Shown here piece after piece: positions 9,943-30,227 of a DNA stretch of 64,000 nt (position 1 is its first letter; every line of letters starts with the position of its first letter). The notes beneath the pieces are model-generated. The model was given only the letters and a program-made list of their open reading frames with translations. It searched no databases and was not told the DNA's origin. Location of the stretch: the NCBI GenBank assembly GCA_030428385.1, contig JAUIDY010000014.1, forward strand, positions 1 to 64,000. The letters are read 5' to 3'. The translations under genes were made by a program, and so were the position numbers. This DNA is from Rhodothermia bacterium. GTDB taxonomy: Bacteria > Bacteroidota > Rhodothermia > Rhodothermales > JAAAOL01.

Positions 9943-10599
9943 TTACGCCTCCGACGAAACCGGATCGAAGGTATAGCCGAAGTACGCAATGTCTTCGTGG
10001 AAATGCTCAGCGATGAGCGCCGCCGTCTTGTCCGTGTAGTAGCTCCGGTAGTCGCGGCGCTTCGACTGGTTGAGGTGCGGCAAACGCGCCTGAAGCCCCA
10101 GATGCTCACAGACAGAGGCAAAGTCGTCGTTCAGCGTCTCGAACCGACCGATAAAATCCACAATCTCGCGCCCTTCGGCATCGGTGACAAAGTCTTTTTG
10201 CAGCTTGTTCGTCCGCGACACGCGCCAGTCGATGTAGGCGTCGAAGTCAGGGATCTCCTTGATGATGTCGTGTTCCTTGTGGTTGGGCATCCGCAGCATG
10301 TAGTGATACAGCGACACCTGCCAGTCCCACGGGTTGCGCACGAAGGCAAACTTGTAAAAGTTGTCGTACGTCTTTTTGGTGTAATACTCCTGAATGGCGC
10401 GCGCCATCGCGTGGCGGTGCGGCAGGGGCTTAAAGGTATCAAAGGGCAGCTTTTCTACGAGCCCCAGCCGCCGCAGCACCCGGTACCCCAGTTCATGCCG
10501 GGGCTTGTGAGCGTACGGCTCCAGCGCGTCTTTGACGCTGGTCCCCGCCACCTTAAAGACGTGGACAAAGATAAAACGATGTTCGAAGGAGATGACCAC
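9943..10599 (-). CDS. Sulfotransferase family 2 (carbohydrate sulfotransferase-like)
   Basis: This compact 218-residue protein is of the Sulfotransfer_2 type, related to HNK-1/chondroitin sulfotransferases. The 5'-phosphosulfate motif is FVHVFKVAGTSV near residue 12, the 3'-phosphate motif is FAFVRNPWDWQVSLYHYML near 85-103, and a final basic YYTDKTA segment is close to the end. It differs from the other three sulfotransferase domains in the window by its H-x-x-K-x-A-G-T loop, so it is a separate lineage and not a duplicate. A 16-base gap separates it from the upstream sulfotransferase gene, giving two such genes in tandem. Confidence 0.88.
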   Translation of the reverse strand: MVISFEHRFIFVHVFKVAGTSVKDALEPYAHKPRHELGYRVLRRLGLVEKLPFDTFKPLPHRHAMARAIQEYYTKKTYDNFYKFAFVRNPWDWQVSLYHYMLRMPNHKEHDIIKEIPDFDAYIDWRVSRTNKLQKDFVTDAEGREIVDFIGRFETLNDDFASVCEHLGLQARLPHLNQSKRRDYRSYYTDKTAALIAEHFHEDIAYFGYTFDPVSSEA

Positions 10600-10615: not shown

Positions 10616-11605
10616 TTACGAAAAGGTCAACCCGACCCGTTCCAGAAGCTGATAGGCCGCCTCTACCTCAGGCGGCGTCAGAAACTTAAACGGGCGGTCA
10701 AGCTGGGCGGAGGTATCCCGGAAAATAGCGTGCGGATCATCCCCTTCGCCACGTGCCGAGAGGGTGGTCCGAAGAAAATCCTGTTCCTTTTTATCCCACG
10801 GGAGTCCGAAAAAGGCCGCCGCCTCGGCAAAAACGGTTTCTGGTTCGCTGCATTGCTGCTCGTATTCAACCAGCCGGGTGTGCCCATGCGCAGCCGCCAG
10901 CACCCGCAGGCTGGCCTGGAGCAGCGCAATCACCAGCACCCGCTCCTGCACACACCGCCGGCGCGTATCGGGGTGTTGCAAAATTTCGGCGTGTCGCTCC
11001 AACACCTGTTCGCGTTGTCCATCAACAAAACGCTGCAGATACGCCTCGTCGAAGATCAGTTCCGTTTCGCCCACCGCATACTGGCTCGATAGCCCGTCGC
11101 GGGAAAACAGGCTGTCGCACACCCGCACCGGATCGCGCACGACGAGCAGCGTGGGACACGGCAGCACCGCCAGCAACCCTTCGGTGGCCAGCAGGCTGTG
11201 CACTTCTTTTACGATACTCACTTCCCACTCGGCATCGTCACGCAGCAAGCAGCGGCGACCTTCTACCGACGCCCGGCTGAAGCCGTCGGCAGCAAGGAGT
11301 CGGTATTTCTTCACCAGCGGATGGTCTGGCTCTAACGACGGCTGGTACGCGATAACCGTATGGTCTTTCGCGCGCTCAAACGGCATCGTCGGCTGCATCT
11401 TGTAGATCGGCTCGTTGAAATACCGCAGCGACGCCGTGGAAGCCGCCAGCGTCTCGCCGAGCCAGTTGGTGCCACTGCGCGGCGTCCCGATGATCAGGCG
11501 CAGCCGCGACGCATCCACGGCTTCCAGGTCGGCCTCGGGGTGAAGCTGACGCAGGCTCCGGTGCCATCGGCCTTCGCGCAAACGCTGACGAATCGCATCC
11601 ATCAT
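10616..11605 (-). CDS. PAPS-dependent sulfotransferase
   Basis: I start this gene at the ATG at 11605, which overlaps the upstream stop as ATGA. A longer in-frame reading to 12109 is antisense-like padding over the neighbour. The product is 329 residues. LIIGTPRSGTNWLGETL (about 33-49) is the 5'-phosphosulfate loop and TLLVVRDPVRVCDSLF (about 170) the 3'-phosphate motif. A VEYEQQCSEPETVF segment near 260 is a typical late helix of the family. It is probably a glycan sulfotransferase of the same locus; the acceptor is unknown. Confidence 0.88.
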   Translation of the reverse strand: MMDAIRQRLREGRWHRSLRQLHPEADLEAVDASRLRLIIGTPRSGTNWLGETLAASTASLRYFNEPIYKMQPTMPFERAKDHTVIAYQPSLEPDHPLVKKYRLLAADGFSRASVEGRRCLLRDDAEWEVSIVKEVHSLLATEGLLAVLPCPTLLVVRDPVRVCDSLFSRDGLSSQYAVGETELIFDEAYLQRFVDGQREQVLERHAEILQHPDTRRRCVQERVLVIALLQASLRVLAAAHGHTRLVEYEQQCSEPETVFAEAAAFFGLPWDKKEQDFLRTTLSARGEGDDPHAIFRDTSAQLDRPFKFLTPPEVEAAYQLLERVGLTFS

Positions 11606-13362
11606 GCCACGCTCCCAACTGGTTCGCGGGCTTCTTTCTGCAACGCCTCCGCTACGGCTTTCATGTACGGAAACTTGGCCTCGTCGATGTACTGAAGCAA
11701 GGTGGGATGGGCGATAAACCGAGCAATGCCGTCGATTTCGGCCTGTGCCTGTTCGGGGTCGAGCCCTTCCAACCAAGCCCCGGCGTCGTTCCAGAACGCA
11801 TCCAGCCCGGTGCCGTGGTTGATGTTGATCTCTTTGAACACGCCTTTTTGGTGGTAGTGCGACGGATCCGGCAGGAAAAGAAACGGATCGTTCTTGAGCA
11901 TCCGCAGGTGGACGAACAACACCACCAACGCCCGCTCCCGCTGCGCTCGGGTCAGCGGCGCGATGGTGTCGATGGTGCGCAGACGCTCGGCGTAGGCCGC
12001 CGGGGTGTCGGGCTCGACGGTAAAGCCGTAGCCGCTGTAGGCGCTCTCGCCGCCCAGCAAACACGGGATGCCGACGGCGGAATACTCGATGCCGGCAGTG
12101 CCCAGACATGTCACCACTACGTCGGCCAAGAATTGCAACGAGCGGGCGTTAAAATCGGCCTGGTAGTCGATGAACACGATATGCTCCCCAGTATCGCCAA
12201 AAAGCGCGTCGAAGTCGAGGTCCTGCGTCTGATAAAACCGGGCCGCTGGGTGCTCCTTAAAAATCCAGTTGACGCTCGGGTTTTTCTTGGCCCCTTGCAG
12301 CGTCGCCAGCAGCCAGTGGTAATAATCTTGAAAGAGGATCGATTCGCGGCCCTGAAAATGTGGGTGGTCGTTGAATGCGTGGAGCATCACAAACACGTTC
12401 TTCCGGCTCGGATCGAGGCCGTGCTTTTGGGCAAAGGCATCGCGGTCGGCGAAGGTTTGTTTGTTGGCCTGGAACGCCAGCCCCGCATCGCGGTCGTCGA
12501 TCTTTTGCCCGAAGCGTTGCTCCAGGTACGCCGTGCCAGCTGCCACCACCGTTTCGCGGGCCTCTTGCTCGGCCACGTCGATATGCACCGCCAACGGGCG
12601 CAGCGGATGGTCCCACACCTGATCCAGCTGTTCGTGTTTGCGGAGCGTCGGCTGGGCGGCGCTGCGGCACAACAACACGGGAATGCCCGCCTTGAGCAAA
12701 TACCGCGCAAAGACGCCGGGATAACAGCCAATCATGTGGCTGAACACGGCGTACTGGATCGGGTACCGCGCCAGGATGTACTGCGCCAGCGCCCGATAGA
12801 GGAAAAACGTCTGGAGCGTCTGCAACACCCGCTCGTCCACCGCTGACAGCGTGGCGTATCCCATCTCGCGCAGGATTTCGTCGTAGACCAGCCCACCCAC
12901 GGGGATGCCGTCTATTTCGAGGCACAGCACATCGTCGGGCGTAGCCAAGGTTTGATACACCTGTTTGGCCTGCCGCGCCGCCGCCCACTCGAACCGGGCA
13001 AAGCGCCACCGCGAGATCTGGATGCCCTCCAGCGGGGCATACGAGCGCAGCACGTTGCCCGGATATACGTTGCGGTTGGGGACGGTGAGGGCGAGCACCT
13101 TCGCGTTCTTCACCGCCGCCGCGATACGGGTGATGCTTGCCGTGTAATGGGTGAAATACGCCACCGAATGCACTTCCATCAGCACATAGCCTTCTGGCTC
13201 TGCCTTGTAGGGCATCTGGCGATCCCAGAAGGCAGCGTTTTTTTGCGCAAACGCGGCCTCGCCGGGCGTGGCGGGCCGTTCGTCCATCAGACGAAACGCG
13301 CGGTAGTCGTCCAAGACCCGCCGCAGCTTCTTCCGCAGATTATAAAGGCGTTGTCGGAGCAT
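11602..13362 (-). CDS. Capsule-synthesis-like surface polysaccharide protein (GT-B-like)
   Basis: This 586-residue soluble protein starts with a basic helix. The C-terminal third has the pattern seen in Capsule_synth/polysaccharide-type transferases: VNWIFKEHPAARFY near 360-375, then a LADVVVTCLGTAGIEYSAVGIPCLLG block near 430-455. That block resembles the nucleotide-binding part of KpsC/KpsS and CDP-glycerol transferase-like proteins. The exact family is uncertain. It may add Kdo-like or other linker residues or act as a large glycosyltransferase. It overlaps its upstream neighbour by one base and its downstream neighbour by four, so coupling is tight. Confidence 0.6.
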   Translation of the reverse strand: MLRQRLYNLRKKLRRVLDDYRAFRLMDERPATPGEAAFAQKNAAFWDRQMPYKAEPEGYVLMEVHSVAYFTHYTASITRIAAAVKNAKVLALTVPNRNVYPGNVLRSYAPLEGIQISRWRFARFEWAAARQAKQVYQTLATPDDVLCLEIDGIPVGGLVYDEILREMGYATLSAVDERVLQTLQTFFLYRALAQYILARYPIQYAVFSHMIGCYPGVFARYLLKAGIPVLLCRSAAQPTLRKHEQLDQVWDHPLRPLAVHIDVAEQEARETVVAAGTAYLEQRFGQKIDDRDAGLAFQANKQTFADRDAFAQKHGLDPSRKNVFVMLHAFNDHPHFQGRESILFQDYYHWLLATLQGAKKNPSVNWIFKEHPAARFYQTQDLDFDALFGDTGEHIVFIDYQADFNARSLQFLADVVVTCLGTAGIEYSAVGIPCLLGGESAYSGYGFTVEPDTPAAYAERLRTIDTIAPLTRAQRERALVVLFVHLRMLKNDPFLFLPDPSHYHQKGVFKEININHGTGLDAFWNDAGAWLEGLDPEQAQAEIDGIARFIAHPTLLQYIDEAKFPYMKAVAEALQKEAREPVGSVA

Positions 13363-13943
13363 CAGGTGTTCATAAAAGGCGGCACCACAAATTCTCGCTC
13401 GGCCTGCGCGTAATCGTCGGCGGTATGCACGTCCGTCGATGGATCGGTGAGCAGGACGTCGGGGTGATGCACGCGGGGGTCGCCGTAGTTCATCAGCCGG
13501 TCGTGGCTAAACGCCCACACGGACCCGTTGTTGACGCGCCCGTCGGCATACACGGTCAGCAGTTCCGTACAGGTGGTGTGCCGCATCACCTCGATGGCGT
13601 TGCGGATGACGGCGGTGGTACACGACGGCGAGTTGGCCTGTACATTAACCACGGCCCCCGGCTCAAAGGGAAGCTGCTGCACGATGTTTTGGAAAAGCGG
13701 GACGCTGGGCACTTCGTGGCCACACAGGTGTTCCGGCCGCCTCAGCGGGATGGCCCCCAACGCCTTGGCTTCTTCGAGCATGTCGGGCGTGTCGGAGTCA
13801 AAATACACCGCCCCAGGCAACAGGTGGACCAGTTTGGCGAGGTTCCAGTGAAACAGCGGACGCCCATGAAACGACCGTCGGTTTTTGGACGGCAGCCGCA
13901 GGCTCGCGCCTTTCGCAATCATCACCCCGATTACTTTGCGCAT
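13362..13943 (-). CDS. Divergent acylneuraminate cytidylyltransferase-like protein
   Basis: This 193-residue protein, somewhat short for CMP-sialate synthetases (about 220-230), keeps the fold landmarks: VIGVMIAKGASLRLPSKN at the N-terminus, VYFDSDTPDMLEEAKALGA near 50, VVNVQANSPSCT near 100, and a terminal DVHTADDYAQAE. The nucleotide loop that reads ARGGSKGIPRKN in the complete enzyme at 24377-25543 is AKGASLRLPSKN here, losing several conserved residues. It may activate a different nonulosonate or other acidic sugar, or may have lost activity. It is followed 1 base on by the capsule-like gene and preceded by a methyltransferase gene. Confidence 0.7.
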   Translation of the reverse strand: MRKVIGVMIAKGASLRLPSKNRRSFHGRPLFHWNLAKLVHLLPGAVYFDSDTPDMLEEAKALGAIPLRRPEHLCGHEVPSVPLFQNIVQQLPFEPGAVVNVQANSPSCTTAVIRNAIEVMRHTTCTELLTVYADGRVNNGSVWAFSHDRLMNYGDPRVHHPDVLLTDPSTDVHTADDYAQAEREFVVPPFMNT

Positions 13944-13947
13944 GGGC

Positions 13948-14514
13948 TTATTTGTCGATGACGGCGATCAGGTTGGACATGTGCAGGTGCGGTAACGAAT
14001 ACGTCCGCACGCGGTGTTCGGGCGCGGCGCAGGCGTGAATCAACTCGGTGAAGTTGACGCGGTTGTACACCTGCACATGCGGCGACCCAAACGCTTTGGC
14101 CTGCACGTCGCCGTCAGGCACCACGATAAACGCCCGCTGCTTCGCCACGCGGATGATTTCGCGGACGGCGGCGTGGTCGTCGTGGATGTGCTCCACCACA
14201 TGCGAGGAATAGACGGTGTCGAAGCTGGCATCGGGAAAGTCAATCGCCGTCGCCGAGCCGACCTTCACGTTGATGCCGCGCTTTTCCCAGTAGGGTTTGC
14301 CATCGTCGGCGGGCTCGATGCCCGTACATTCCTTGTACGGATAAAACGCCTGCACCACGCTCAGCGCCAGCCCGGTGCCACACCCCACGTCCAGGATGCG
14401 GTCGCCGCGCAGGTTACGGATAATCTCGTGCAGCAAGCTCCACGCGTGGTCATAAAACAGCCAGCCTTCCTCTAACTTGCGGAGGCCATCTACATCAAAA
14501 GCTTCAGCGGGCAT
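13948..14514 (-). CDS. Class I SAM-dependent methyltransferase
   Basis: This 188-residue protein has the SAM-binding motif I ILDVGCGTGLAL near residue 40, an acidic CTGIEPAD after beta-2, and FDTVYSSHVVEHIHDDHAAV as motif II, which is typical of Methyltransf_11/23 enzymes. It lies 4 bases upstream of the cytidylyltransferase-like gene, among glycan genes. It may therefore methylate a sugar or cap the chain end, and chain-end methylation is a known recognition signal for Wzt C-terminal domains. Its acceptor is not visible. Confidence 0.82.
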   Translation of the reverse strand: MPAEAFDVDGLRKLEEGWLFYDHAWSLLHEIIRNLRGDRILDVGCGTGLALSVVQAFYPYKECTGIEPADDGKPYWEKRGINVKVGSATAIDFPDASFDTVYSSHVVEHIHDDHAAVREIIRVAKQRAFIVVPDGDVQAKAFGSPHVQVYNRVNFTELIHACAAPEHRVRTYSLPHLHMSNLIAVIDK

Positions 14515-14590: not shown

Positions 14591-14657
14591 GTGAAACGTA
14601 AAACGTGAGGGTGCCGGGCTTCTTCGTTCGGAAGCAAGTTCACGTTTTACGCTTCAC
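14591..14657. terminator. Inverted repeat downstream of the neuB-like gene
   Basis: Arms 14591-14608 and 14640-14657 match at 17 of 18 positions (AAACGTAAAACGTGA type) with a 31-base loop. The right arm overlaps the last codons of the NeuB-like gene by four bases. There is no clear T-run, so a strong intrinsic terminator is doubtful. It could be a pause or attenuation point, an RNA-stabilising hairpin, or a small dispersed repeat. The gap it occupies (14515-14653) is among the longer ones in the operon. Confidence 0.5.
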
Positions 14658-15718
14658 GTTTCAAGCACAGCCAAGTCTTCCCACTGCAACACATGATCGG
14701 CGTCGAGGTCGCGGCGCACGGTTCGGCCCAGCACGGCGTCCCAATACAGCGGGCTGATGCCGGTGCCGGGGCGTTTGTACGTGAGGGCTTCTTCCGTGAG
14801 CGCCGTGCCTGCGGGTAGCGGCTGCGCCAGCACGATGCTGCGCCGGGCATGGGCGCGTGCCGGATCTTCTGTGGGGATAGGCTGCTTGTGGGTGTCGGGG
14901 CCGAGCAGCGTGCGAATGTGTGCGAGCCGCTGCCAGAACCGTTTCAGGTCGTCCACATCCATCGCGTGGTAGTGGTCGTTGCCGGGCAGGGTTTTGTCGT
15001 GCGTAAAATGTTTTTCCAGAACCCGCGCGCCCAGCAAATACGCCGTCGTGAGCGAAGTCATCGCATCGTCGGGCAGCGTGTGATCAGAGTAGCCGATGGG
15101 GTACGTGGGATACGCGCGCTGGAGCCCGGTGATCATGGCGAGGTGCGCCTGTGGGTCGGGCGTGGGATAGTTGAGGATGCAGTGCAGCAGCGCGACTTCC
15201 TCACAACCAGCGGCGTGCAGGGTATGCAGCGCCATGTCCACTTCGCCCAGCGTCGACGCCCCCGTTGAAAGCACCACCGGTTTGCCCACCTGTGCGATGC
15301 GACGCAAAAACGGCAGGTTGGTGAGGTCAGCCGACGCAATCTTAAAAAACGGCATCAGCGGCGTCAGAAATTCCACCGCCGCGTCGTCGAAGGGCGTCGA
15401 GAGAAAATCGATCTCCTGTTCCTTGCAGTAAGCCGCCAGTTCGCGGTAGTCGTCGGGGCCAAAGGCGTCGTATTTCTGGAACAGCTTGTACTGGCTGGTG
15501 GTGGGCTCGGCGTTGAGGTCCCAGTACGCCGGACTGTGCCGCGAGGCGAGCGTATGGGCCTTGTAGGTTTGGAACTTGGCGGCATCGGCACCGCCTTCTT
15601 TTGCCAGCCGGATCAGTTCTTTGGCCTGCGCCAGCGAGCCTTCGTGGTTTACCCCGATCTCGGCGATGACGTACGGATCGCCCAGCGGGGTCAGGTCTTT
15701 GTTGCCCAGCCGCATCAT
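14654..15718 (-). CDS. neuB: N-acetylneuraminate/nonulosonate synthase, NeuB family
   Basis: This 354-residue protein has full family length. The N-terminal TIM barrel starts YVIAEIGVNHEG and contains AAKFQTYK, LSTPFDDAAVEFL, FFKIASADLTNLPFL, VVLSTGAST and YPIGYSDHTLPDDA, all NeuB/SpsE/PseI landmarks. Residues about 295-352 form the C-terminal SAF (antifreeze-like) domain (ARRSIVLAQPLPAG, YWDAVLGR). It condenses PEP with a hexosamine such as ManNAc or a 2,4-diacetamido sugar to give a nine-carbon acid. Whether the product is sialic, legionaminic or pseudaminic acid cannot be told. No NeuC-type epimerase gene lies in the window. It sits two bases downstream of a GT2 gene. Confidence 0.92.
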   Translation of the reverse strand: MMRLGNKDLTPLGDPYVIAEIGVNHEGSLAQAKELIRLAKEGGADAAKFQTYKAHTLASRHSPAYWDLNAEPTTSQYKLFQKYDAFGPDDYRELAAYCKEQEIDFLSTPFDDAAVEFLTPLMPFFKIASADLTNLPFLRRIAQVGKPVVLSTGASTLGEVDMALHTLHAAGCEEVALLHCILNYPTPDPQAHLAMITGLQRAYPTYPIGYSDHTLPDDAMTSLTTAYLLGARVLEKHFTHDKTLPGNDHYHAMDVDDLKRFWQRLAHIRTLLGPDTHKQPIPTEDPARAHARRSIVLAQPLPAGTALTEEALTYKRPGTGISPLYWDAVLGRTVRRDLDADHVLQWEDLAVLET

Positions 15719-15720
15719 GC

Positions 15721-16410
15721 TTATGCGTTTGCCTTCAAATAGGCCTCGACGCGCTCCTTGCCGTGTTTGGCTTCAAGCATTTCGAGGTAGGTGTCGAGCG
15801 AATCGGAGTCGTTGGTCATGTTGTCGCCGTGCTTGCGGTAGCGGTACAGCGGCAGCGCCACGCGGTGGACTTCGTACTTCTCGATGAACCGAATCATCAG
15901 GTCTTTGTCCTCGTGCACCTTCATGCCATCGTCGTACAGCCCCAACTCAATCAGGTGCTCGATACGAAACATGATGCCACACCCGATAGGCTCCTTCAGA
16001 CAGTGAACTTGCCGCAGGTGCTGTTCGGCGTCATCCACGAGGTAATAATCGCAGGCGGCGGCGTCCATGTGCGGATTCATTAGCAGGTGCAGCGTGAGGA
16101 TGTTCAGGTATTCGCTGTGCACATAGTCGTCGGCGTCGATGCGCACCACGAAGCGCCCCTTGGCGGCTTTGATGCCCACATTCAGCGAACCCGGCAGTCC
16201 TTTTTGCACCTCGTTGCGCAGCACCCGGATGTCGCTCTCAAAAAGCTCCAGCGCATAGCGCGTGCGGTCGGTGCTGGCGTCATCGACGATGATAATCTCA
16301 AAGTTGGATTCCGGGTATTTCTGGCTCAGCGCCGAGCGGATGCACCGCCCGATGTATTTCTCCTGGTTGTGCACCGGGATGATGACAGAAACAACAGGGG
16401 CGTTTTTCAT
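15721..16410 (-). CDS. GT2 family glycosyltransferase
   Basis: This 229-residue small GT-A enzyme starts [21 protein letters not shown] and has [16 protein letters not shown] near 40 and [15 protein letters not shown] near 90, the DxD segment. A short acceptor half ends in a helix, with no membrane segment. It is short for GT2 but has all core motifs. It is placed between an M28-like gene and the neuB-like gene, two to three bases from each. Confidence 0.9.
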
Positions 16411-16413
16411 GGT

Positions 16414-17730
16414 TCAGAAACTAGAATCGGTCGTGTCTTCAACCAGCAAGGCTTGCGCCAGCAGCGCATCGGCGGCGGCGCGGATGGTGGCAAAAGGAAG
16501 GTTGGCGCGTTCGGCAATGGCCAGCAGGCTGTGGGTCCCATCGGAGAAGTTAAGCACCCACATGATGGCTTCCTGTAACGAGGCGATTTGCTGTGCCCCC
16601 CCGACGGTGCGGTACAGCCCACGCCGCCCCAACTGAGGCTCGCCGTACGGATGGGTGTTGCGATATGTGCGGTTGCCTTCGAGCACGGCCACCACCTGCG
16701 CATACATCTCAAACGTCTCACCCAGATATTCGGGCTGCACCAACGCCAGGTCGTCTGCCGAGGTATGGTACTGCGAAAAGCGACCATACGGCGTCCGCAT
16801 GATAGAACCCACCGGCAGATTAAACCCCGGCGAGCTAAACTGCCGCTCGTCGCTCCCCAGCGGGTAGAAGTCAAGCACCGCATGGTCGAAGCCGCTGTGG
16901 GCCAGCACGTGCATCACGGTGTGGTCCAGTTCGGCCTCGCCCGCACGGGTTTTTTTGTACGTCAGCCGTCCCGGATCGCCGAGGCACGTCGCCACAATCC
17001 CGTGTTTGATGTGCGCTACCTGATCGCGGTTTTGCGCCAGCCACGTGATGGCCCCAATGGTTTCCGGGATAAACAGGAGCCGGTAGGTGTACCGCAGCGC
17101 CTCGCCTGCGGCCTGCATTTCTTGCAACACTTGCGCCAACTGCGCGGCCAGCACCACGCCCGACAGGTTGTCGTTGCACATCGAGGGATGGCACAGGTAA
17201 CAGGTGATGAGCACTTCGTCGGTGCTCGCACCCGGAATCACACATTCGCCATAGGTCAAGGCTCCGTCTTCCAGCGTGCTGTCGATCACTACCTCGTATT
17301 CGCCGTCGGGCAGCGTTTCAAACTGATGGTGCGTCAGGCAGAAGCCCCAGTTTTCATTGTAATACGACGTGCGGTACGGGATGATATCGGGTTGATCGGG
17401 CAGGGTGTGCAGGTGTGGACGGAGTGCCTCCAGCGACATACGCTGGCGCACGGGCACGCTGTAGCTCACCACATGCAGGTTGTGCGCCTGGAAGTCGGCG
17501 ATTTTGGTACCGTCGGGGGCAATGAGGTAGGCGTCGCGGATGTTCCATTCTTTCGGCACGTTCCAATCCAAGACGGGCGTCCCCGACGGCACCTCGTGGA
17601 CCGTGAGCGCAACCTTTTCCTGAATGATTTGCAGCGTCTCGCGCACGCCGTTGCCCGTAATGCTGCGGCAGATGGGATACAGCCGCCGCATCAGGTCATA
17701 CATCGCCTGTCCGTGTGCCTTATCCCCCAT
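16414..17730 (-). CDS. M28-like (DUF4910-type) metallopeptidase-fold protein with C-terminal winged helix
   Basis: This 438-residue protein begins AMYDLMRRLYPICRSITGNG, typical of the DUF4910/DUF2172 group. Zinc-site-like segments are CYLCHPSMCNDNLSG (about 172-186), FIPETIGAI and FSQYHTSADD (about 325). Residues about 375-430 look like a winged helix-turn-helix (AIMWVLNFSDGTHSLLAIAE). Such proteins recur in LPS and capsule loci without a firmly known reaction. A deacylase or amidohydrolase acting on an amino sugar or nonulosonate is a reasonable guess. Its start overlaps the AAC(3)-like gene by 11 bases. Confidence 0.78.
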   Translation of the reverse strand: MGDKAHGQAMYDLMRRLYPICRSITGNGVRETLQIIQEKVALTVHEVPSGTPVLDWNVPKEWNIRDAYLIAPDGTKIADFQAHNLHVVSYSVPVRQRMSLEALRPHLHTLPDQPDIIPYRTSYYNENWGFCLTHHQFETLPDGEYEVVIDSTLEDGALTYGECVIPGASTDEVLITCYLCHPSMCNDNLSGVVLAAQLAQVLQEMQAAGEALRYTYRLLFIPETIGAITWLAQNRDQVAHIKHGIVATCLGDPGRLTYKKTRAGEAELDHTVMHVLAHSGFDHAVLDFYPLGSDERQFSSPGFNLPVGSIMRTPYGRFSQYHTSADDLALVQPEYLGETFEMYAQVVAVLEGNRTYRNTHPYGEPQLGRRGLYRTVGGAQQIASLQEAIMWVLNFSDGTHSLLAIAERANLPFATIRAAADALLAQALLVEDTTDSSF

Positions 17731-18526
17731 GATGCGGCCGCACGTCGGCTTCGTTTTCGACGAGGCAATACGGATCGGCGGTGATTTTGTCCATCGCCAC
17801 GTCCACTAGGTCGCGGTACTTGCATACGTTCACAACGCCACTTCCCAGTTTGGTCTCATGCAACAAACCTGCTTCTTTTAACCCTTCGCCAATAATGGCA
17901 AAGTCGAGTTTGGGGCGGGGGCGCTCCCCATCGCCGAGGTCGCGCACAAACATGGTGTAGGTCCGTTCCTCGGCGTGGCCGTTGTCGATGTACGTGCTCG
18001 TAAACGACTTCCAGTAGCGATACGGCACTTCGGCCTTTTGCTCGGCGTAGTGCGCCACCGACGCCCACTGAATATCCACGCCCAGCAACAGCAGCCACGC
18101 GTCGTGGTTGATCAGTTGATCAAACGCGCTTCCCGGATCAAACGACGCAGGCGTGTCATTCGCGCAGATCTCCTCGGCCAGCCGCCCGACCACAGCAATA
18201 GACTGCATCGGGTGCGGACTGCGAATGCTCTGCGGCAACTGGCGCACGTACTCCGAAAGCTGCCCCACGCGGTCCGACGGCGTGTGCTGGCGGTCAAACG
18301 GCTCGCCCCGGCAAAACCCGAAGTTAAAAGCAGGTACCGCCAGCGTGCCTTCCGGCCCCAGGTAGTCGATCAGCGTCTCGGCGATGAGGCGCGGCGCTTC
18401 TCGGACGGGATGGCCCTGCAGCCGCCCCAGCATAAACAACGAACTATGGACCGACACGAGGTCTCCCGGACGGATGCCCGCGTCTTGCAGGACCTGGACT
18501 AGTTCTTCGATCCGATAACGCTTCAT
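17720..18526 (-). CDS. AAC(3)-fold N-acetyltransferase of the polysaccharide locus
   Basis: This 268-residue protein is of normal AAC(3) family length. Landmarks are GDLVSVHSSLFMLG (about 21-34), GPEGTLAVPAFNFGF (about 77), TPSDRVGQLSEYVRQLP and RSPHPMQSIAVVG (about 122-134). Relatives in surface-glycan loci acylate amino groups of sugars; drug resistance is not implied. The neighbours are an ACP gene and a GNAT gene upstream and the M28-like gene downstream (overlapping). The acyl donor could therefore be acyl-ACP or acyl-CoA, and this is inference. Confidence 0.83.
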   Translation of the reverse strand: MKRYRIEELVQVLQDAGIRPGDLVSVHSSLFMLGRLQGHPVREAPRLIAETLIDYLGPEGTLAVPAFNFGFCRGEPFDRQHTPSDRVGQLSEYVRQLPQSIRSPHPMQSIAVVGRLAEEICANDTPASFDPGSAFDQLINHDAWLLLLGVDIQWASVAHYAEQKAEVPYRYWKSFTSTYIDNGHAEERTYTMFVRDLGDGERPRPKLDFAIIGEGLKEAGLLHETKLGSGVVNVCKYRDLVDVAMDKITADPYCLVENEADVRPHHGG

Positions 18527-18542
18527 GAAGGAGTGGGGTGAG

Positions 18543-19019
18543 TTACAAAACCTTCCGCATCTGCAACAACTCGCGCTCGAAGCCCATGTGCTCCCAGAAG
18601 TCGATGGAGGCGGTGTTTTTCCAGATGGCGTTGAGTTCGCAGGCGTAGACCTCTTTTTTGCGAAACCATGCTTCCATCTGATCCACCATCCGCTTCGAGA
18701 CGCCTCTGGCGCGTCCCTCCGGGGCGACGTAGATGTGCGTGACGATACCCAGCCGGTAACTGCCCAAGTACGTCGGCCCTACGCGCAACACGCCCTGGAT
18801 AAACCCGATGGCCTTGCCGTCCTCCACGGCCACCGCCACCACGGCCAGCTTGCCCAGTGTCTTCTCGATGGAGCGCCGCCAGATTTTTTCGCCGCCGTCT
18901 ACCAAGGGCATCACCCAACCTTGCTCCACCATCCCGGCGTAAAAATCCACAAACAGCCCTTCTACCTGATCCAGCAACGGATCGCCCCGCTCCATCTCCA
19001 CGATGTTAATCTGTCCCAT
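18543..19019 (-). CDS. GNAT family N-acetyltransferase
   Basis: I start at the ATG at 19019 (158 residues, MGQINIVEMERGDPLL). An in-frame ATG at 19040 would add seven residues and deepen the overlap with the ACP gene. The GNAT core is visible: motif A region THIYVAPEGRARGVSKRMVDQM (acetyl-CoA pyrophosphate loop) near 95-115, then the ACELNAIWKNTASIDFWEHMGF block typical of the final strands. It would transfer an acyl group to an amine, probably on a nucleotide sugar of this pathway. It overlaps the ACP gene by 14 bases. Confidence 0.85.
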   Translation of the reverse strand: MGQINIVEMERGDPLLDQVEGLFVDFYAGMVEQGWVMPLVDGGEKIWRRSIEKTLGKLAVVAVAVEDGKAIGFIQGVLRVGPTYLGSYRLGIVTHIYVAPEGRARGVSKRMVDQMEAWFRKKEVYACELNAIWKNTASIDFWEHMGFERELLQMRKVL

Positions 19020-19293
19020 CGACGCCCTCCACGGCTCCATCCATCACACACCGCATCAGTCCCGACACCAGCGATAACTCCTCTGGGCGGTACGCTTCGA
19101 GGTCTACCTCCACGTCGAAGGTGTCCTCAATGTCGGCCACCAGTTCGATGAATCCCATCGAGTCGAGCACGCCCGTGTCGATCATGTTGAGGTCACGGGT
19201 GACATCGATAGAATCTACGTTCAGGTCCCGCAAGCGGGCCTGCAGGTGTGCTTCGATGAATCGGTATAAATCCTGCTCAAACGTTGGGGACAT
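19006..19293 (-). CDS. Acyl carrier protein
   Basis: I chose the ATG at 19293 (95 residues), preceded by a GAAGGAAG purine stretch. An earlier in-frame ATG at 19431 would overlap the Wzt-like gene. The phosphopantetheine site is TGVLDSMGFIELVADIEDTF with Ser45 in a DSM motif. Acidic helices surround it, as in FabD/AcpP-like and standalone carriers (DVEVDLEAYRPEELSLVSG). An ACP inside a polysaccharide operon, next to GNAT and AAC(3)-like acyltransferase genes, suggests acyl groups handed to a sugar as thioesters. No adenylating ligase or ketosynthase gene is in the window to load it, so loading by the host fatty-acid system is likely. Confidence 0.9.
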   Translation of the reverse strand: MSPTFEQDLYRFIEAHLQARLRDLNVDSIDVTRDLNMIDTGVLDSMGFIELVADIEDTFDVEVDLEAYRPEELSLVSGLMRCVMDGAVEGVDGTD

Positions 19294-19333: not shown

Positions 19334-20659
19334 TCAGGGCGATGAAACGGCTTCGACGAGGTTCTGTACGTGCAGCCGGGAGGTGACGTCGAAATAACCG
19401 GGGCGTCGTTCGTCGGTCTCCGCCTCCACAATTAACGGTGCCGTCAGGTCATCCACAATATCGTAGGGGCGGCGCTCCTCATAGCGGTGTTGCTCGCGGG
19501 TATCGTCGGCGCGGTTGCGGGCCAGGCCAAAATACAAGGGATACGTCCCTGGCCGTAGCGGCAAAGCGGGTACTTCCACCTGGATGGTGTTCTGGTGCCC
19601 CACCGAGAGGCTGCCCTGCGTCACACAATGCCGCAATTCCGCGAGGGGCTCCCGCGATTTGCCGGACCGGAACAGAATACCAACATCCAGCCCTTTTAAG
19701 TCTTCAAAGACTTCGTAGGAAAGCTCAAAAAACACGGGCTCGCCCTGATGAAAACGGTACCGTTCGTGTCCTTCGGCATCGCGCACCACAATCCGGGTGA
19801 ACCGGGCATGGCCCAGCCCCCGGCGGTGGCGCATGTTGTTCAGCGCGGTCTCGGCATCCACCTTCAGGTCTTCGAGGCTGGCGTAATACTGTTCCAGCAC
19901 GTCCGTCGTTGTGCCATCACACAACACCTTGCCATCCTTCAAAAGAATGGTGCGGGGACACAGCGTGTCGATCATCTGCATGTTGTGGCTCACAAAGAGC
20001 ACGGTCCGTCCGCCTTCCGCCACTTCTTCCATCTTGCCGAGGCACTTTTTCTGAAAGGCAAGGTCGCCCACGGCCAGCACCTCGTCAATCAACAGCACCT
20101 CGGGCTCTAGGTGTGCCGCCACGGAAAAGGCCAGCCGTACCGACATCCCCGAAGAATACCGCTTAACCGGAGTATCGATAAATTTCTCGACGCCGGAGAA
20201 GGCCACGATCTCGTCGAATTTCCGGTCGACCTCCTCCTTCCGCATGCCCAGCACGGTCCCGTTGAGGTACACGTTTTCGCGGCCTGTCAGCTCTTTATGA
20301 AACCCCGTTCCCACTTCCAACAGGCTCGACACGCGCCCCTGGATGCTGGCTTTTCCGTAAGTGGGTTCTGTGATCCGTGAAAGCACCTTAAGCAACGTGC
20401 TTTTTCCAGCCCCGTTGCGCCCGATCACGCCTACCACTTCGCCCCGGTTCACCTGGAACGAGATGTCGCGCAGGGCCCAGAGAATATCGGCGGCTTCTTC
20501 TTGTTTAAAGCTACTCAGTTTGCGCAGGTCACGGAAATTGCGCAACGGGCGGGCAAAGGCTGCCATCACCGCTTGAAACATGGTATCGTGTTGATCCTCC
20601 GCCAACCCGATGCGATACCGCTTGCTAATATTCTCTACTTCGATGGCGACGTTGCCCAT
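19334..20659 (-). CDS. Polysaccharide ABC exporter ATPase, Wzt-like (copy 2)
   Basis: This 441-residue protein has an ATPase domain (about 1-260) with GRNGAGKST, YSSGM and VLLIDEVLAVGD, nearly the same as copy 1 at 1126-2442. The C-terminal domain (about 280-430) is a Wzt-like beta sandwich (RIVVRDAEGHERYRF, FFELSYEVFEDL, GTYPLYFGLARNR) that aligns poorly with that of copy 1. It lies between a polyprenyl-phosphate GT2 gene and the ACP gene, closer to the lone permease gene (25595-26470) than copy 1, so it is the default partner. Different C-terminal domains may select different chain ends. Confidence 0.93.
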   Translation of the reverse strand: MGNVAIEVENISKRYRIGLAEDQHDTMFQAVMAAFARPLRNFRDLRKLSSFKQEEAADILWALRDISFQVNRGEVVGVIGRNGAGKSTLLKVLSRITEPTYGKASIQGRVSSLLEVGTGFHKELTGRENVYLNGTVLGMRKEEVDRKFDEIVAFSGVEKFIDTPVKRYSSGMSVRLAFSVAAHLEPEVLLIDEVLAVGDLAFQKKCLGKMEEVAEGGRTVLFVSHNMQMIDTLCPRTILLKDGKVLCDGTTTDVLEQYYASLEDLKVDAETALNNMRHRRGLGHARFTRIVVRDAEGHERYRFHQGEPVFFELSYEVFEDLKGLDVGILFRSGKSREPLAELRHCVTQGSLSVGHQNTIQVEVPALPLRPGTYPLYFGLARNRADDTREQHRYEERRPYDIVDDLTAPLIVEAETDERRPGYFDVTSRLHVQNLVEAVSSP

Positions 20660-24376: not shown

Positions 24377-25543
24377 CTACCCGACGCTTCGCTGTGCCAA
24401 GATCAGGTCACAGATTTCATGGACGGCTCCTTCTCCTCCTTTCTTCAAGGTTACATAGCCTGCCGTTTCTTTTACAACAGAAACCGCATCTGCCACAGCA
24501 AGCGGGATCCCTACCCATTGCAGCCCCTGCAAGTCGTTTACATCATTGCCCATAAACGCGACCTGATGAGATAAGATACCGCGCTCTTCAGCCAGTCGTT
24601 TGAGGGCACTCAGCTTGTCATCACAGGCCTGGTCATAGGGCACATTCATGCGTTCACACTGGGCAGCAACAACGGGATTTCGTTCCGTCGACAACACCCG
24701 CACCTCTACCCCCGATCCTACCACGGCTGCAATTCCCTCGACATCTGCCCGATGGCACAGCACCGCCTCTTTTCCATGTTGGTCGATCAGCACCTGGTTG
24801 TTCGTCAGCACCCCGTCAAAGTCTAAAATAAATAGCTTGAGGCTTGAAAAGTCGGGGATGGCCCGTAAGGATTGCTGGGCTTGAAGAAAATAGTCAATTA
24901 CCACGAGGTCATTTTCTTCATCCACCTGCAACGACTCGATGGCCCCCATTCGGAAGGGGATGATCTTACCACCCAACCGATTGTGATACGTTCGCAAGAC
25001 CCAGGGCTTAAAGACATAGATCGAACCGTTTTCAATCAGGTCTTCGGGCGCATCTTGCCGCCGCATCCGATGGCGATAATCATAATTCAGCGACCGCAAC
25101 GTGCCGCCTTCATTGCGCCAAACAAATCCCTCCAAGGGTCCTACCGATAACAACGAGTCGGCCTCTTCCTCGACAAAGGCATTGAAGGCACGCTGCACAT
25201 CGTCTCGCTTCCGAATCGGTGACGTAGCTTGTAGAAAAATAACTTGCTCAGGTTCATACCCTTCCGTGTCGCGCAGGTAATCGAGCACATGCAAGAGGGC
25301 GGATTCAGAGGGCGCCGCATCACCGCTGATTTCGTGCGGGCGCAAAATGACCTCGGCACCATATTTTTTTGCAATGGCCGATATCTCAGGGCTATCGGTG
25401 GAGACCACCACCCGCGTCACCGCAGGCGTTTGTACGGCTATTTCCACCGTATGGGCCAACAACGGTTTTCCCGCAACAATGCGAATGTTTTTGCGCGGAA
25501 TCCCTTTCGACCCCCCCCGGGCTGGTATGATGCATAAAGCCAT
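24377..25543 (-). CDS. neuA: Acylneuraminate cytidylyltransferase fused to a KdsC/NANP-like HAD phosphatase
   Basis: This 388-residue two-domain protein has residues 1-225 as CMP-nonulosonate synthetase with the intact loop IIPARGGSKGIPRKNI, VVSTDSPEI, IFLQATSPIRKRDDV and ENGSIYVF. Residues 230-388 are a HAD phosphatase without cap: LFILDFDGVLTNNQVL (nucleophile and acid Asp), VLSTERNP, and FMGNDVNDLQGLQWVG. The synthetase activates the nine-carbon acid made by the NeuB-like enzyme. The phosphatase half would remove a 9-phosphate if the synthase uses a 6-phosphosugar, as in Kdn-type routes. Similar fusions are known in animals and some Bacteroidota. It lies between the permease gene and the large membrane protein gene. 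Confidence 0.9.
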   Translation of the reverse strand: MALCIIPARGGSKGIPRKNIRIVAGKPLLAHTVEIAVQTPAVTRVVVSTDSPEISAIAKKYGAEVILRPHEISGDAAPSESALLHVLDYLRDTEGYEPEQVIFLQATSPIRKRDDVQRAFNAFVEEEADSLLSVGPLEGFVWRNEGGTLRSLNYDYRHRMRRQDAPEDLIENGSIYVFKPWVLRTYHNRLGGKIIPFRMGAIESLQVDEENDLVVIDYFLQAQQSLRAIPDFSSLKLFILDFDGVLTNNQVLIDQHGKEAVLCHRADVEGIAAVVGSGVEVRVLSTERNPVVAAQCERMNVPYDQACDDKLSALKRLAEERGILSHQVAFMGNDVNDLQGLQWVGIPLAVADAVSVVKETAGYVTLKKGGEGAVHEICDLILAQRSVG

Positions 25544-25594: not shown

Positions 25595-26470
25595 CTAGGC
25601 CACATCGGCAAACCGACGTTCCATCCGCTTAAAGTAAAAGGCTCCCGTCACAAAGAGGATTACGGTGGACAAGGTCCCCATTCCAATCAGGTCCCAGGGC
25701 ATAGGGGTGGTCCCAATAATAGAAGCCCGAAACCCTTCGATCACCCCAGCCATCGGGTAGAGTCCATAAATCAGCCGAATGGTTTCTCCTGTAATCGACC
25801 ATGTCTCGGTAATCTGAACCAGCGGAAACTGCTCAGTAATCAAAGAGACCGGCCATACCACCGGAGCCGCATACATTAAGATTTTGGCTAGAAAACCCGT
25901 CGCATGTTTAATGTCGCGGTATTGAATGGTCAACGCCGAAAGCCACATCCCAATTCCGCTGGCTGCCATGACCATTAAAAGAATCAGCAGGGGTAAAAAT
26001 ATGATATTGGATGTAGGAACCACCTTATACCAAATCATAAGGCCGCCAATAATTACAAACGCAATCGCAAAATCGACGAGCTTGGCCAATACCGGGGTCA
26101 TGGGGATCACGAGCCGGGGAAAATAGACCTTGGTCAACATGCCCGAGCTTCCAATCAGGCTCGTGGTAGAAGCAGACATGGACGACGAAAAGTAGGTCCA
26201 GGGCACCAGGGCCACATAGCTAAAAATGGCATAGGGAGCCCCGTCGCTGTCCACCTTTGCCATTTTCCCAAAGATGACCGTAAAGATGACCATCTGAAAC
26301 AGGGGCTGCATGATCGCCCACGAAAACCCCAGGACGGTCTGTTTATACAAGACCTTGATGTCTCGCAGAACCAAAAAATAAAAAAGGTCGCGGTATTCGA
26401 TGATTTCTTTCCAATCGATTACCTGCCACCCTTTTTTGGGCTCAATGATCGTTTGAATGGGCTTGCTCAA
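25595..26470 (-). CDS. ABC-2 type polysaccharide export permease (Wzm-like)
   Basis: This 291-residue protein has six hydrophobic segments (about 60-85, 95-115, 137-160, 170-195, 205-222 and 262-282) after a cytoplasmic N-terminus starting with a WKEIIEYRDLFYFLVLRDI amphipathic gate helix. The KVLYKQTVLGFSWAIMQPLFQM motif is typical of Wzm/TagG permeases. It forms the membrane channel that extrudes lipid-linked glycan with a Wzt ATPase. Two Wzt-like genes lie downstream in the same operon but only this permease, so both ATPases may share it. Confidence 0.93.
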   Translation of the reverse strand: MSKPIQTIIEPKKGWQVIDWKEIIEYRDLFYFLVLRDIKVLYKQTVLGFSWAIMQPLFQMVIFTVIFGKMAKVDSDGAPYAIFSYVALVPWTYFSSSMSASTTSLIGSSGMLTKVYFPRLVIPMTPVLAKLVDFAIAFVIIGGLMIWYKVVPTSNIIFLPLLILLMVMAASGIGMWLSALTIQYRDIKHATGFLAKILMYAAPVVWPVSLITEQFPLVQITETWSITGETIRLIYGLYPMAGVIEGFRASIIGTTPMPWDLIGMGTLSTVILFVTGAFYFKRMERRFADVA

Positions 26471-28505: not shown

Positions 28506-30227
28506 TTACACCAGATAGCCCAATTCGTATAACCGCGCAACCACCTTTTCGGCACTTTCGTCGATGGTTTCTTCGGCGGTGTAGCACGTCACCTCGGCAT
28601 TGACGGGAGCTTCGTACGGATCGTCGATCCCTGTAAACTCTTTAATGATGCCTGCCCGCGCCTTGGCATAGAGCCCTTTCACATCGCGTGATTCGCACAC
28701 TTCGAGTGGCGCATCGACAAACACTTCCACATAACCGCCATTGCTGCCAATGATTTCGCGGTTGGCGTTGCGGTCGGCTTCGTACGGGGCGATGGGAGCA
28801 CAGATGGCAATCCCACCGTGTTTGGTCACTTCGCTCGCCACATAGCCAATCCGGCGGACGTTGGTGGAGCGGTCTTCCCGCGAGAAGCCCAGCCCTTTGC
28901 TCAGGTGGGTCCGCACCACATCCCCATCCAGGATCGTGACAGGCCGCCCTGCTTTTTCGAGCAGCTTAATCATCACCGCATTCGCAACGGTTGATTTCCC
29001 AGAACCCGAGAGTCCGGTGAAAAAGACCGTGAAGCCTTGCTTCGAGCGGGGCGGATACGAGCGGCGCAACTCGGCCACAACGTCGGGATATGAAAACCAG
29101 GCGGGGATGTCTTTGCCTTCGCTCAGCAAGGCCCGCAGTTGGGTCCCCGAAATCATTTCGAACGCTTCGCCCCGTGCCTGCACTTCGTCAATCGGTTCGT
29201 AGGCGTCTTTGGCCGGAACGTACACCATCAGTTTGAAGGGCACCAGCTTGATACCAAGCTCTTCTTCATGCTCCAGCACCAGATCCTGGGCATCGTAGGG
29301 CCCGTAAAACGGCGTGCCGCTGCTGTCCTTGCCCGGCCCCGCATGGTCGCGGCCAACAACAAAGTGCGTACACCCGTGGTTCTTACGGATAATGGCATGC
29401 CACACCGCCTCGCGGGGGCCGCCCATACGCATCGCCAGAGGCAACAGGCTGATGGTGGCACGGCCTTCGGGGTAGTAGTCCAGCAATTCCTGATAACACC
29501 GAACCCGCGTAAAGTAGTCGATGTCGCCCGGCTTAGTCATCCCCACGACGGGATGAATCAGCAGGTGCCCGCCCACTTCCTCAGCGGCCCGGTCGGTGAG
29601 TTCTTTATGCGCCCGGTGCATGGGGTTGCGTGTCTGGAACGCGACCACCTGGTTCCAGGTCTTCGCCTCGAAGAGTTCGCGCAGGTCAGAAGGAGTACGG
29701 CGCAAGTCCCGGAAGTCGTAATGCGGCGGCAGTTGCAGCCCTTCCAGCGTCCCGCCCACGTAATAATCACCGGCGATGTTCATCAGGTAGTTGACCGCGG
29801 GATGCTCGGTATTGGTGGTGCCAAATACCTGCTCTGCTTCGCGGTCTTTGTCCACCTTCCACACATCGCCCACGGTAAGAATCGCCAGGAGCAAGCCCGT
29901 CTTTTCGCGCAGCGCCACGCGCTGTCCTGCCTCCAGCGTACCGGCGGTTTCTTCCGACACGTCCAGCGTAATAGGCATGGGCCAGATAGTGCCATCGGCA
30001 AGCCGCAGATTGTCCACCACGCTATCATAATCGTCTTTATTCTGGAAACCGCGCAGGGGCGAGAAGCCACCCGTGAGCAGCAGTTCGAGGTCACAAAGCT
30101 GGCGTTCACTTAGCGTAATCGATGCCAGGTCGCGGGCCTCGTCTTTGGCAGCAGCGGCATCGGCTTCGTTAAGCATGAGATCGCACAGGACCCCACCATG
30201 AGGTTCAATTAAGGTCGTGGTGTTCAT
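28506..30227 (-). CDS. Bifunctional sulfate adenylyltransferase / adenylylsulfate kinase (PAPS synthetase)
   Basis: This 573-residue fusion has ATP sulfurylase in residues about 1-390 and APS kinase in about 395-573. Sulfurylase motifs are VVAFQTRNPMHRAHKEL, VVGMTKPGDIDYFTR and VVGRDHAGPGKDSSG. Kinase motifs are VFFTGLSGSGKSTVANAV (P-loop), ILDGDVVRTHLSKGLGFSRE and RSTNVRRIGYVA, so the kinase looks active. It converts sulfate and two ATP to PAPS, the donor for the sulfotransferases encoded downstream. It lies 55 bases downstream of an anion permease gene. No PAPS or sulfite reductase gene is in the window, which fits use of PAPS for sulfonation and not only for cysteine synthesis. Confidence 0.95.
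   Translation of the reverse strand: MNTTTLIEPHGGVLCDLMLNEADAAAAKDEARDLASITLSERQLCDLELLLTGGFSPLRGFQNKDDYDSVVDNLRLADGTIWPMPITLDVSEETAGTLEAGQRVALREKTGLLLAILTVGDVWKVDKDREAEQVFGTTNTEHPAVNYLMNIAGDYYVGGTLEGLQLPPHYDFRDLRRTPSDLRELFEAKTWNQVVAFQTRNPMHRAHKELTDRAAEEVGGHLLIHPVVGMTKPGDIDYFTRVRCYQELLDYYPEGRATISLLPLAMRMGGPREAVWHAIIRKNHGCTHFVVGRDHAGPGKDSSGTPFYGPYDAQDLVLEHEEELGIKLVPFKLMVYVPAKDAYEPIDEVQARGEAFEMISGTQLRALLSEGKDIPAWFSYPDVVAELRRSYPPRSKQGFTVFFTGLSGSGKSTVANAVMIKLLEKAGRPVTILDGDVVRTHLSKGLGFSREDRSTNVRRIGYVASEVTKHGGIAICAPIAPYEADRNANREIIGSNGGYVEVFVDAPLEVCESRDVKGLYAKARAGIIKEFTGIDDPYEAPVNAEVTCYTAEETIDESAEKVVARLYELGYLV

Follow-up and report, generated by a model that had tools for sequence, protein, structure and literature searches.

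Das 2014 (PMC4000134) reported the structure of CA_C2195 (3k9t), a DUF4910 protein of Clostridium acetobutylicum that holds one zinc ion (His189, Asp195, His324) and has lost the catalytic Asp and Glu of M28 peptidases. Its gene cluster also encodes NeuB/SpsE, SpsF, an aminosugar N-acetyltransferase, an acyl carrier protein (ACP) and a GNAT+HAD protein, and the transfer of an acyl or peptide group onto an amino sugar was proposed. In Campylobacter jejuni, the DUF4910 protein Cj1295 is required for 5-N-(2,3-di-O-methylglyceroyl) pseudaminic acid, the m/z 391 ion being absent from the Cj1295 mutant, and it was suggested to cleave the C5 acetamido group so that a new acyl group can be attached (Hitchen 2010, PMC3068675). 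The oxonium masses that we computed are 391.17 for di-O-methylglyceroyl replacing acetyl, as observed, and 433.18 for simple addition. The Cj1295 locus also holds the fkbH-domain gene cj1302; the modification is absent from strain 12664, in which cj1302 is a pseudogene, and from strain 12661, which lacks cj1301 (Sacher 2020, PMC7099621). Here we analysed a stretch of 64,000 nucleotides (hereafter the window) from a Rhodothermia bacterium of the phylum Bacteroidota (assembly GCA_030428385.1, contig JAUIDY010000014.1, positions 1 to 64,000), in which genes for an ACP, a GNAT-fold acyltransferase, an AAC(3)-fold N-acyltransferase and a DUF4910 protein lie side by side. We read them as a carrier-protein-dependent N-acyl replacement cassette within a nonulosonate-type surface-glycan locus, an interpretation to which we give about an even chance. 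The original prediction for this DNA regarded such a gene set as undescribed; the association is, however, already in print, with DUF4910 listed together with ACP, N-acetyltransferase and NeuB by Das 2014 and the Campylobacter DUF4910 protein tied to N-acyl replacement by Hitchen 2010.

Results

All four genes are encoded on the minus strand. The carrier protein (19006..19293; 95 aa; PF00550, 28 bits against a cut-off of 20.8) has Ser45 in the motif GVLDSMG, and its gene overlaps by 14 bp that of the GNAT-fold acyltransferase (18543..19019; 158 aa; PF00583, 7.6e-12). After a gap of 16 bp follows the gene for the AAC(3)-fold (Antibiotic_NAT) N-acyltransferase (17720..18526; 268 aa; PF02522, 6e-40), which in turn overlaps by 11 bp the gene for the 438-aa DUF4910-DUF2172-HTH_47 protein (16414..17730), whose three domains all score above cut-off (PF16254, 3e-109; PF09940, 1e-41; PF16221, 2e-29). 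These Pfam matches agree with the earlier description of the four genes, although the DUF4910 gene lies just beyond the interval that it quoted (17720-19293). It had also seen neither a ligase nor a ketosynthase gene nearby; indeed, no homologue of the partner ligases described below or of FkbH was found in the 64-kb window, and no ketosynthase (PF00109) on its contig.

The exact order ACP-GNAT-AAC(3)-DUF4910 is also present in genome G157 (locus L139; AAC(3) at 3e-65, GNAT at 2e-33), which we read as another Bacteroidota family, its phylum being judged from the control and the named loci. Because the same order recurs in an unrelated genome, the set is more than a chance grouping, and the co-occurrence of the four genes elsewhere, on which the original prediction depended, is thereby established; the gene set is real and recurring. 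In L139 the genes overlap or touch, an adenylation ligase gene stands directly before the ACP gene, and NeuB and CMP-transferase genes lie upstream. The order ligase-ACP-GNAT-AAC(3) can be followed as far as the contig end in L175 (genome G388), a locus with NeuB and a KdsC-type HAD gene, and the trio ligase-ACP-GNAT occurs, without DUF4910 in the stretch read, in L195, L196 and L197. All five loci contain module-specific GNAT relatives and have the ligase directly upstream of the ACP; the window is the sole case in which the trio is without its ligase. The module-type GNAT is rare in the genomes sampled: it was present in the window genome, G157 and G388 among 395 genomes of the phylum, and in 3 of 341 in another class sample. 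A GNAT match in G721 was dropped as a further module, having neither a carrier nor a ligase gene beside it. A plasmid search with the GNAT and a phage search with the DUF4910 protein gave no match.

AAC(3) and DUF4910 genes also occur together with other putative loaders. L138 has the order AAC(3)-DUF4910-ACP-acyl ligase-reductase, the ligase being of the acyl-CoA type; in L144 and L145 the AAC(3) is fused to FkbH (TIGR01686, 290 and 281 bits) and accompanied by a MaoC-SDR gene, DUF4910 and NeuB; and L147 combines AAC(3) and DUF4910 with a full pse set. The loader thus differs between loci (amino-acid ligase, acyl-CoA-type ligase or FkbH), while NeuB lies within about 10 kb in 6/6 loci with both AAC(3) and DUF4910. 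Together with the NeuB gene in the same gene run of the window, this supports the predicted setting, that of an amino sugar or nonulosonate; the predicted acyl-decoration module and carrier-borne donor are supported as well. L195 and L196 also encode an FkbH homologue that has a carrier to itself; each of these loci contains two loader-carrier sets, one with MaoC-SDR, FkbH and ACP and the other with ligase, ACP and GNAT. They also code for a protein of 394-396 aa that has a glyoxalase-like domain and is weakly similar to AAC(3); for the 394-aa proteins phmmer gave 2e-7 and 4e-6 against AAC(3), without a Pfam Antibiotic_NAT match.

The window DUF4910 protein matches 3k9t at 1e-154 and keeps the single-zinc ligands of that structure, the HPS..D and H residues lying in CHPSMCND and YHTSAD; some DUF4910 relatives have Asn at the position of the zinc-ligand Asp. 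For 83 DUF4910 proteins, two sequence positions were compared with the gene neighbourhood. Glu in P-E-T together with Ser in G-S-DERQ characterises every one of the 11 proteins encoded at most about 10 kb from a NeuB gene, the window protein being one of them; in the 72 proteins that lack NeuB nearby, the second position is always Tyr and the first is occupied by a different residue (mostly Gly; not scored in four). The association between the Glu/Ser signature and NeuB gives a Fisher value of 6e-14, not corrected for kinship. The 3k9t protein, likewise from a NeuB cluster, is of the same PETIG/GSDERQ type, and the signature Glu comes right after the Pro that stands where M28 peptidases have their general base. 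As judged from these proteins, DUF4910 falls into two types, and the two-residue signature marks the nonulosonate one, to which the window protein belongs. We did not recover a single module clade in the DUF4910 tree: L138, L139, L144, L145 and L147 form a clade that excludes the window protein and 3k9t (weak support). Because these two stand apart from the remaining Glu/Ser proteins, the signature reflects more than membership of a single clade.

The 80 best-scoring of at least 585 DUF4910 matches in the genome collection were examined and rejected as support for co-occurrence, 0/80 having AAC(3), GNAT, ACP or NeuB within 10 kb. This implies that DUF4910 has other uses as well. The other type (L046-L125), found in Nitrospira, Streptomyces, cyanobacteria and others, has neighbours encoding a C-methyltransferase, an RmlC-like isomerase, a PIG-L deacetylase and a class III aminotransferase.

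The rival explanation that survives best, although we consider it doubtful, assigns the whole reaction to the DUF4910 protein, which would itself swap the N-acetyl for the carrier-borne acyl group on its one zinc site, while the AAC(3)-fold enzyme and the GNAT would carry out other N-acetylations with acetyl-CoA. Transacylation was suggested by Das 2014 (PMC4000134) since the peptidase residues are lost, the C. jejuni modification depends on Cj1295 while Cj1296/7 is out of frame (Hitchen 2010, Table 1, PMC3068675), and Cj1298 is elsewhere named LegH, an acetyltransferase. However, two N-acyltransferase-fold genes are packed together with the carrier gene in the window, L139 and L175, and DUF4910 is often found without any carrier nearby.

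The absence of the ligase from the window, given its place in 5/5 relatives, led us to consider a second alternative, namely that the cassette is a decayed orphan whose remaining genes no longer make the modified sugar. In the window genome no close homologue of the partner ligases was found, the best match (31%) being an adenylation (A) domain on contig C209 in a prolyl-carrier cluster. We rejected it as the dedicated loader, as it has a carrier of its own and a neighbour resembling a prolyl-carrier dehydrogenase. The cluster (L178, 2769-5808, G000:C209) has in a row a carrier, the A-domain ligase and a PigA/prolyl-carrier dehydrogenase-like gene, with matches of the nonribosomal peptide synthetase type nearby, and could possibly be pyrrole- or prodigiosin-like. 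An FkbH search of the genome gave no match, yet the control likewise matched nowhere. Nevertheless, the four genes are intact, their starts overlap or touch, the AAC(3) and DUF4910 genes have a third-position GC content (GC3) of 0.74-0.77, like neighbouring genes, and the active-site residues are kept, which makes decay unlikely.

The nature of the donor was approached through the carrier and the ligases of the related loci. The solved structures nearest to the window carrier are the peptidyl carrier 2my5 (2.7e-6) and D-alanyl carriers (4.5e-6), whereas well-known ACP structures of fatty-acid synthesis (FAS) match at 0.0085 or worse. Among the NCBIfam models, AmcB and DltC rank above the FAS ACP models, all below cut-off (32 bits against 68 for the DltC equivalog), and the same two models come first, again below cut-off, for the L139 and L175 carriers. 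A DS motif that contains the phosphopantetheine Ser, and DltC and peptidyl carriers as nearest kin, make the window protein look like an aminoacyl carrier; the cognate ligase of such a system is lacking in the 64 kb and present in the five related loci. The partner ligases are A-domain/DltA-like (TIGR01733, 316 and 308 bits; structure matches to DltA and gramicidin synthetase), and 5/5 contain the motif FD[LP]S[VI]HD. In A domains, the Asp of the FD-x-S motif contacts the alpha-amino group of the amino acid. The motif thus points to an amino acid as the probable cargo of the carrier in the related loci.

The original prediction had drawn the acyl chains from fatty-acid synthesis. Given that the carrier resembles DltC and peptidyl carriers, this idea is unsupported, and the FD-x-S motif of the dedicated adenylation enzymes in the five related loci suggests an amino acid instead. 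As a third alternative we find it improbable. In its favour, flagellin islands of Aeromonas and enterobacteria contain ACP, AMP-ligase and 3-oxoacyl-ACP reductase genes and have been discussed in terms of a "liposugar" (PMC7874193, PMC4875605), and L138 has an ACP, an acyl-CoA-type ligase and a reductase beside AAC(3)-DUF4910. Against it, the closest co-operonic relatives of the window carrier adjoin amino-acid adenylation enzymes, no ketosynthase or reductase gene stands beside the cassette, and the genome has its own FAS-type ACP next to FabF on another contig (C169); neither closest similarity to FAS ACPs nor adjacent FAS genes were found for the window carrier.

The fold searches with the two transferases returned the expected folds only and carry no information on the donor. 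The AlphaFold model of the GNAT (pLDDT 76) is nearest in fold to AAC(6')-Iy. The AAC(3)-fold enzyme matches 6mn5 at 3.7e-19 in Foldseek, and its His159 aligns with the catalytic His154 of AAC(3)-IVa (6mn3); profile, fold and catalytic residue all place it in the Antibiotic_NAT/AAC(3) family. At the same time, it scores 94 bits against a cut-off of 420, and 86 against 270, with the aminoglycoside-resistance equivalogs. The GNAT proteins of L195 and L196 no longer have the CoA pyrophosphate loop, and in those of L175 and the window it is altered, reading RARGVS in the latter; this is suggestive only, and would fit a carrier-bound rather than a CoA-bound donor. That the genes act separately, with AAC(3) and GNAT acetylating from acetyl-CoA and the ACP serving another pathway, is the least probable alternative, for although both folds resemble acetyl-CoA enzymes, in six genomes ACP and GNAT always come as a pair, with overlapping or touching genes.

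On its downstream side the cassette is followed on the same strand by genes for a GT2 glycosyltransferase (15721..16410; PF00535, 7e-31), a NeuB/SpsE-type nonulosonate synthase with a SAF domain (14654..15718; PF03102, 2e-74), an S-adenosylmethionine-dependent methyltransferase (13948..14514; PF08241, 6e-18), a short cytidylyltransferase-like protein (13362..13943; PF02348, 4e-5) and a 586-aa protein without a Pfam match, glycosyltransferase-like by context (11602..13362), a weak homologue of which is encoded directly 3' of DUF4910 in L139 (8e-9). The structure nearest to the NeuB protein is SpsE 1vli (1.9e-54), and its scores are under the NeuB and PseI equivalog cut-offs. Directly upstream of the ACP gene, also on the minus strand, lies an ABC ATPase gene with a Wzt C-terminal domain for polysaccharide export (19334..20659; PF00005, PF14524), followed by more glycan genes, a CMP-sugar synthetase fused to a KdsC-type HAD phosphatase (24377..25543; PF02348, 3e-23) and an ABC-2 polysaccharide export permease (25595..26470; PF01061, 9e-11), these last two likewise on the minus strand. 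The fusion protein matches the KdsC and KDN-9-phosphatase models below cut-off, a hint that the nonulosonate route is a phosphorylated (KDN-like) one. The genome has one gene of the UDP-GlcNAc 2-epimerase family.

The region contains two paralogous Wzt-type ABC ATPases 17 kb apart (1126-2442 and 19334-20659), with unlike C-terminal ends, and the one permease; perhaps two glycans share one exporter. In addition, an ATP-sulfurylase/APS-kinase fusion and a CitMHS-type transporter (28506-30227 and 30283-32061) as well as three sulfotransferase-family genes (5908-6921, 9943-10599 and 10616-12109) suggest that the exported glycan is sulfated. A bacterial alpha-2-macroglobulin-like protein of 2039 aa is encoded at 46027-52146 with high GC3.

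Discussion

To the published association this analysis adds a recurrence of the exact four-gene order together with a ligase, the trio of ligase, carrier and GNAT, the variation among loaders, the resemblance of the carrier to DltC and the two-residue signature of DUF4910. From these we infer the following pathway for N-acyl replacement. An adenylation enzyme, encoded directly upstream in the relatives but acting from elsewhere or missing in the window organism, would load a small acid onto the Ser45-phosphopantetheine of the DltC-like carrier; an amino acid is the most likely cargo. The single-zinc, M28-derived DUF4910 protein would then free or exchange the N-acetyl group that the sugar already bears, in line with the proposal made for Cj1295; an M28-like protein trimming an acyl group, as originally predicted, is thus possible and repeats the hypothesis of Hitchen 2010. 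The GNAT, the AAC(3)-fold enzyme or both would move the carrier-borne acyl group onto the amine of a nonulosonate or of its amino-sugar precursor. Finally, the CMP transferase would activate the sugar, glycosyltransferases would add it to the glycan, and the Wzm/Wzt-type ABC transporter would export the product.

Several observations weigh against this pathway. With neither a ligase nor an FkbH gene in the window, the carrier may not be charged as proposed, or may be orphaned. In the window DUF4910 protein, as in 3k9t, the M28 catalytic Asp and Glu are replaced by Ser and Pro, which makes hydrolysis uncertain. The parts of the cassette are separable, since L197 has the trio but, over the 18.5 kb read, no AAC(3) and no DUF4910 gene. 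Moreover, Cj1296/7 (N-acetyltransferase) is out of frame in both C. jejuni variants (Hitchen 2010, Table 1, PMC3068675); hence a transferase at this position may be dispensable, and DUF4910 or the GNAT may perform the transfer. Finally, the pseudaminic acid precursor gene PseB was not found above cut-off in the genome.

The variable loaders allow a wider, more tentative proposal: that bacteria possess a general N-acyl replacement pathway for nonulosonates, in which interchangeable loaders (amino-acid adenylation enzyme, acyl ligase or FkbH) would charge small carriers, a Glu/Ser-type DUF4910 would remove or exchange the UDP-GlcNAc-derived N-acetyl group, and GNAT and AAC(3)-fold enzymes would use the carrier-bound acyl or aminoacyl group instead of acyl-CoA. 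In both C. jejuni 12661 and 12664, a pseudaminic acid ion shifted by +15 Da (332.15) has gone unexplained (Sacher 2020, PMC7099621). The value computed for N-glycyl in place of N-acetyl is 332.145, and under the general pathway the ion would be the N-glycyl form, a reading that is our own. If true, N-acyl replacement of this kind would account for N-acyl variation in the sialic-acid-like surface sugars of bacteria, which can be recognised by immune receptors and phages. DUF4910, with a structure solved more than 10 years ago and no function, would gain a testable reaction and a residue signature of the nonulosonate type, and an AAC(3)-fold enzyme would be placed in carrier-dependent sugar biosynthesis instead of antibiotic resistance.

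Among known systems, DltA/DltC D-alanylation and amipurimycin-type pathways resemble the cassette in their components, the window carrier being similar to DltC and AmcB and the ligases of the relatives to DltA. The use of an aminoacyl-carrier as amide donor in butirosin-type pathways offers a further parallel. Unlike the DltA/DltC system, the window has no DltB or DltD, its AAC(3) and GNAT folds are cytosolic, and the ligase is absent. With the AAC(3) aminoglycoside acetyltransferases (PF02522) the window enzyme has the fold and catalytic His in common, but it lies far under every equivalog cut-off and in a glycan operon beside a carrier. The Aeromonas and enterobacterial flagellin islands likewise combine a carrier and a ligase in nonulosonate loci; their genes are, however, described as fatty-acid or "liposugar" genes, and DUF4910 or AAC(3) was not found in the consulted parts of these papers (PMC7874193, PMC4875605). 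The C. acetobutylicum cluster CA_C2186-CA_C2199 (PMC4000134) unites DUF4910, an aminosugar N-acetyltransferase, ACP and NeuB/SpsE, as does the window, but has in addition a GNAT+HAD gene, FkbH-like by description only, and an ATP-grasp ligase. The C. jejuni flagellin locus Cj1295-Cj1302 has the FkbH-type loader cj1302 (PMC7099621) and places pseudaminic acid on flagellin, whereas the window, without a loader or PseB above cut-off, would supply an ABC-exported glycan; nevertheless, both loci combine DUF4910 with N-acetyltransferase genes in a nonulosonate setting (PMC3068675).

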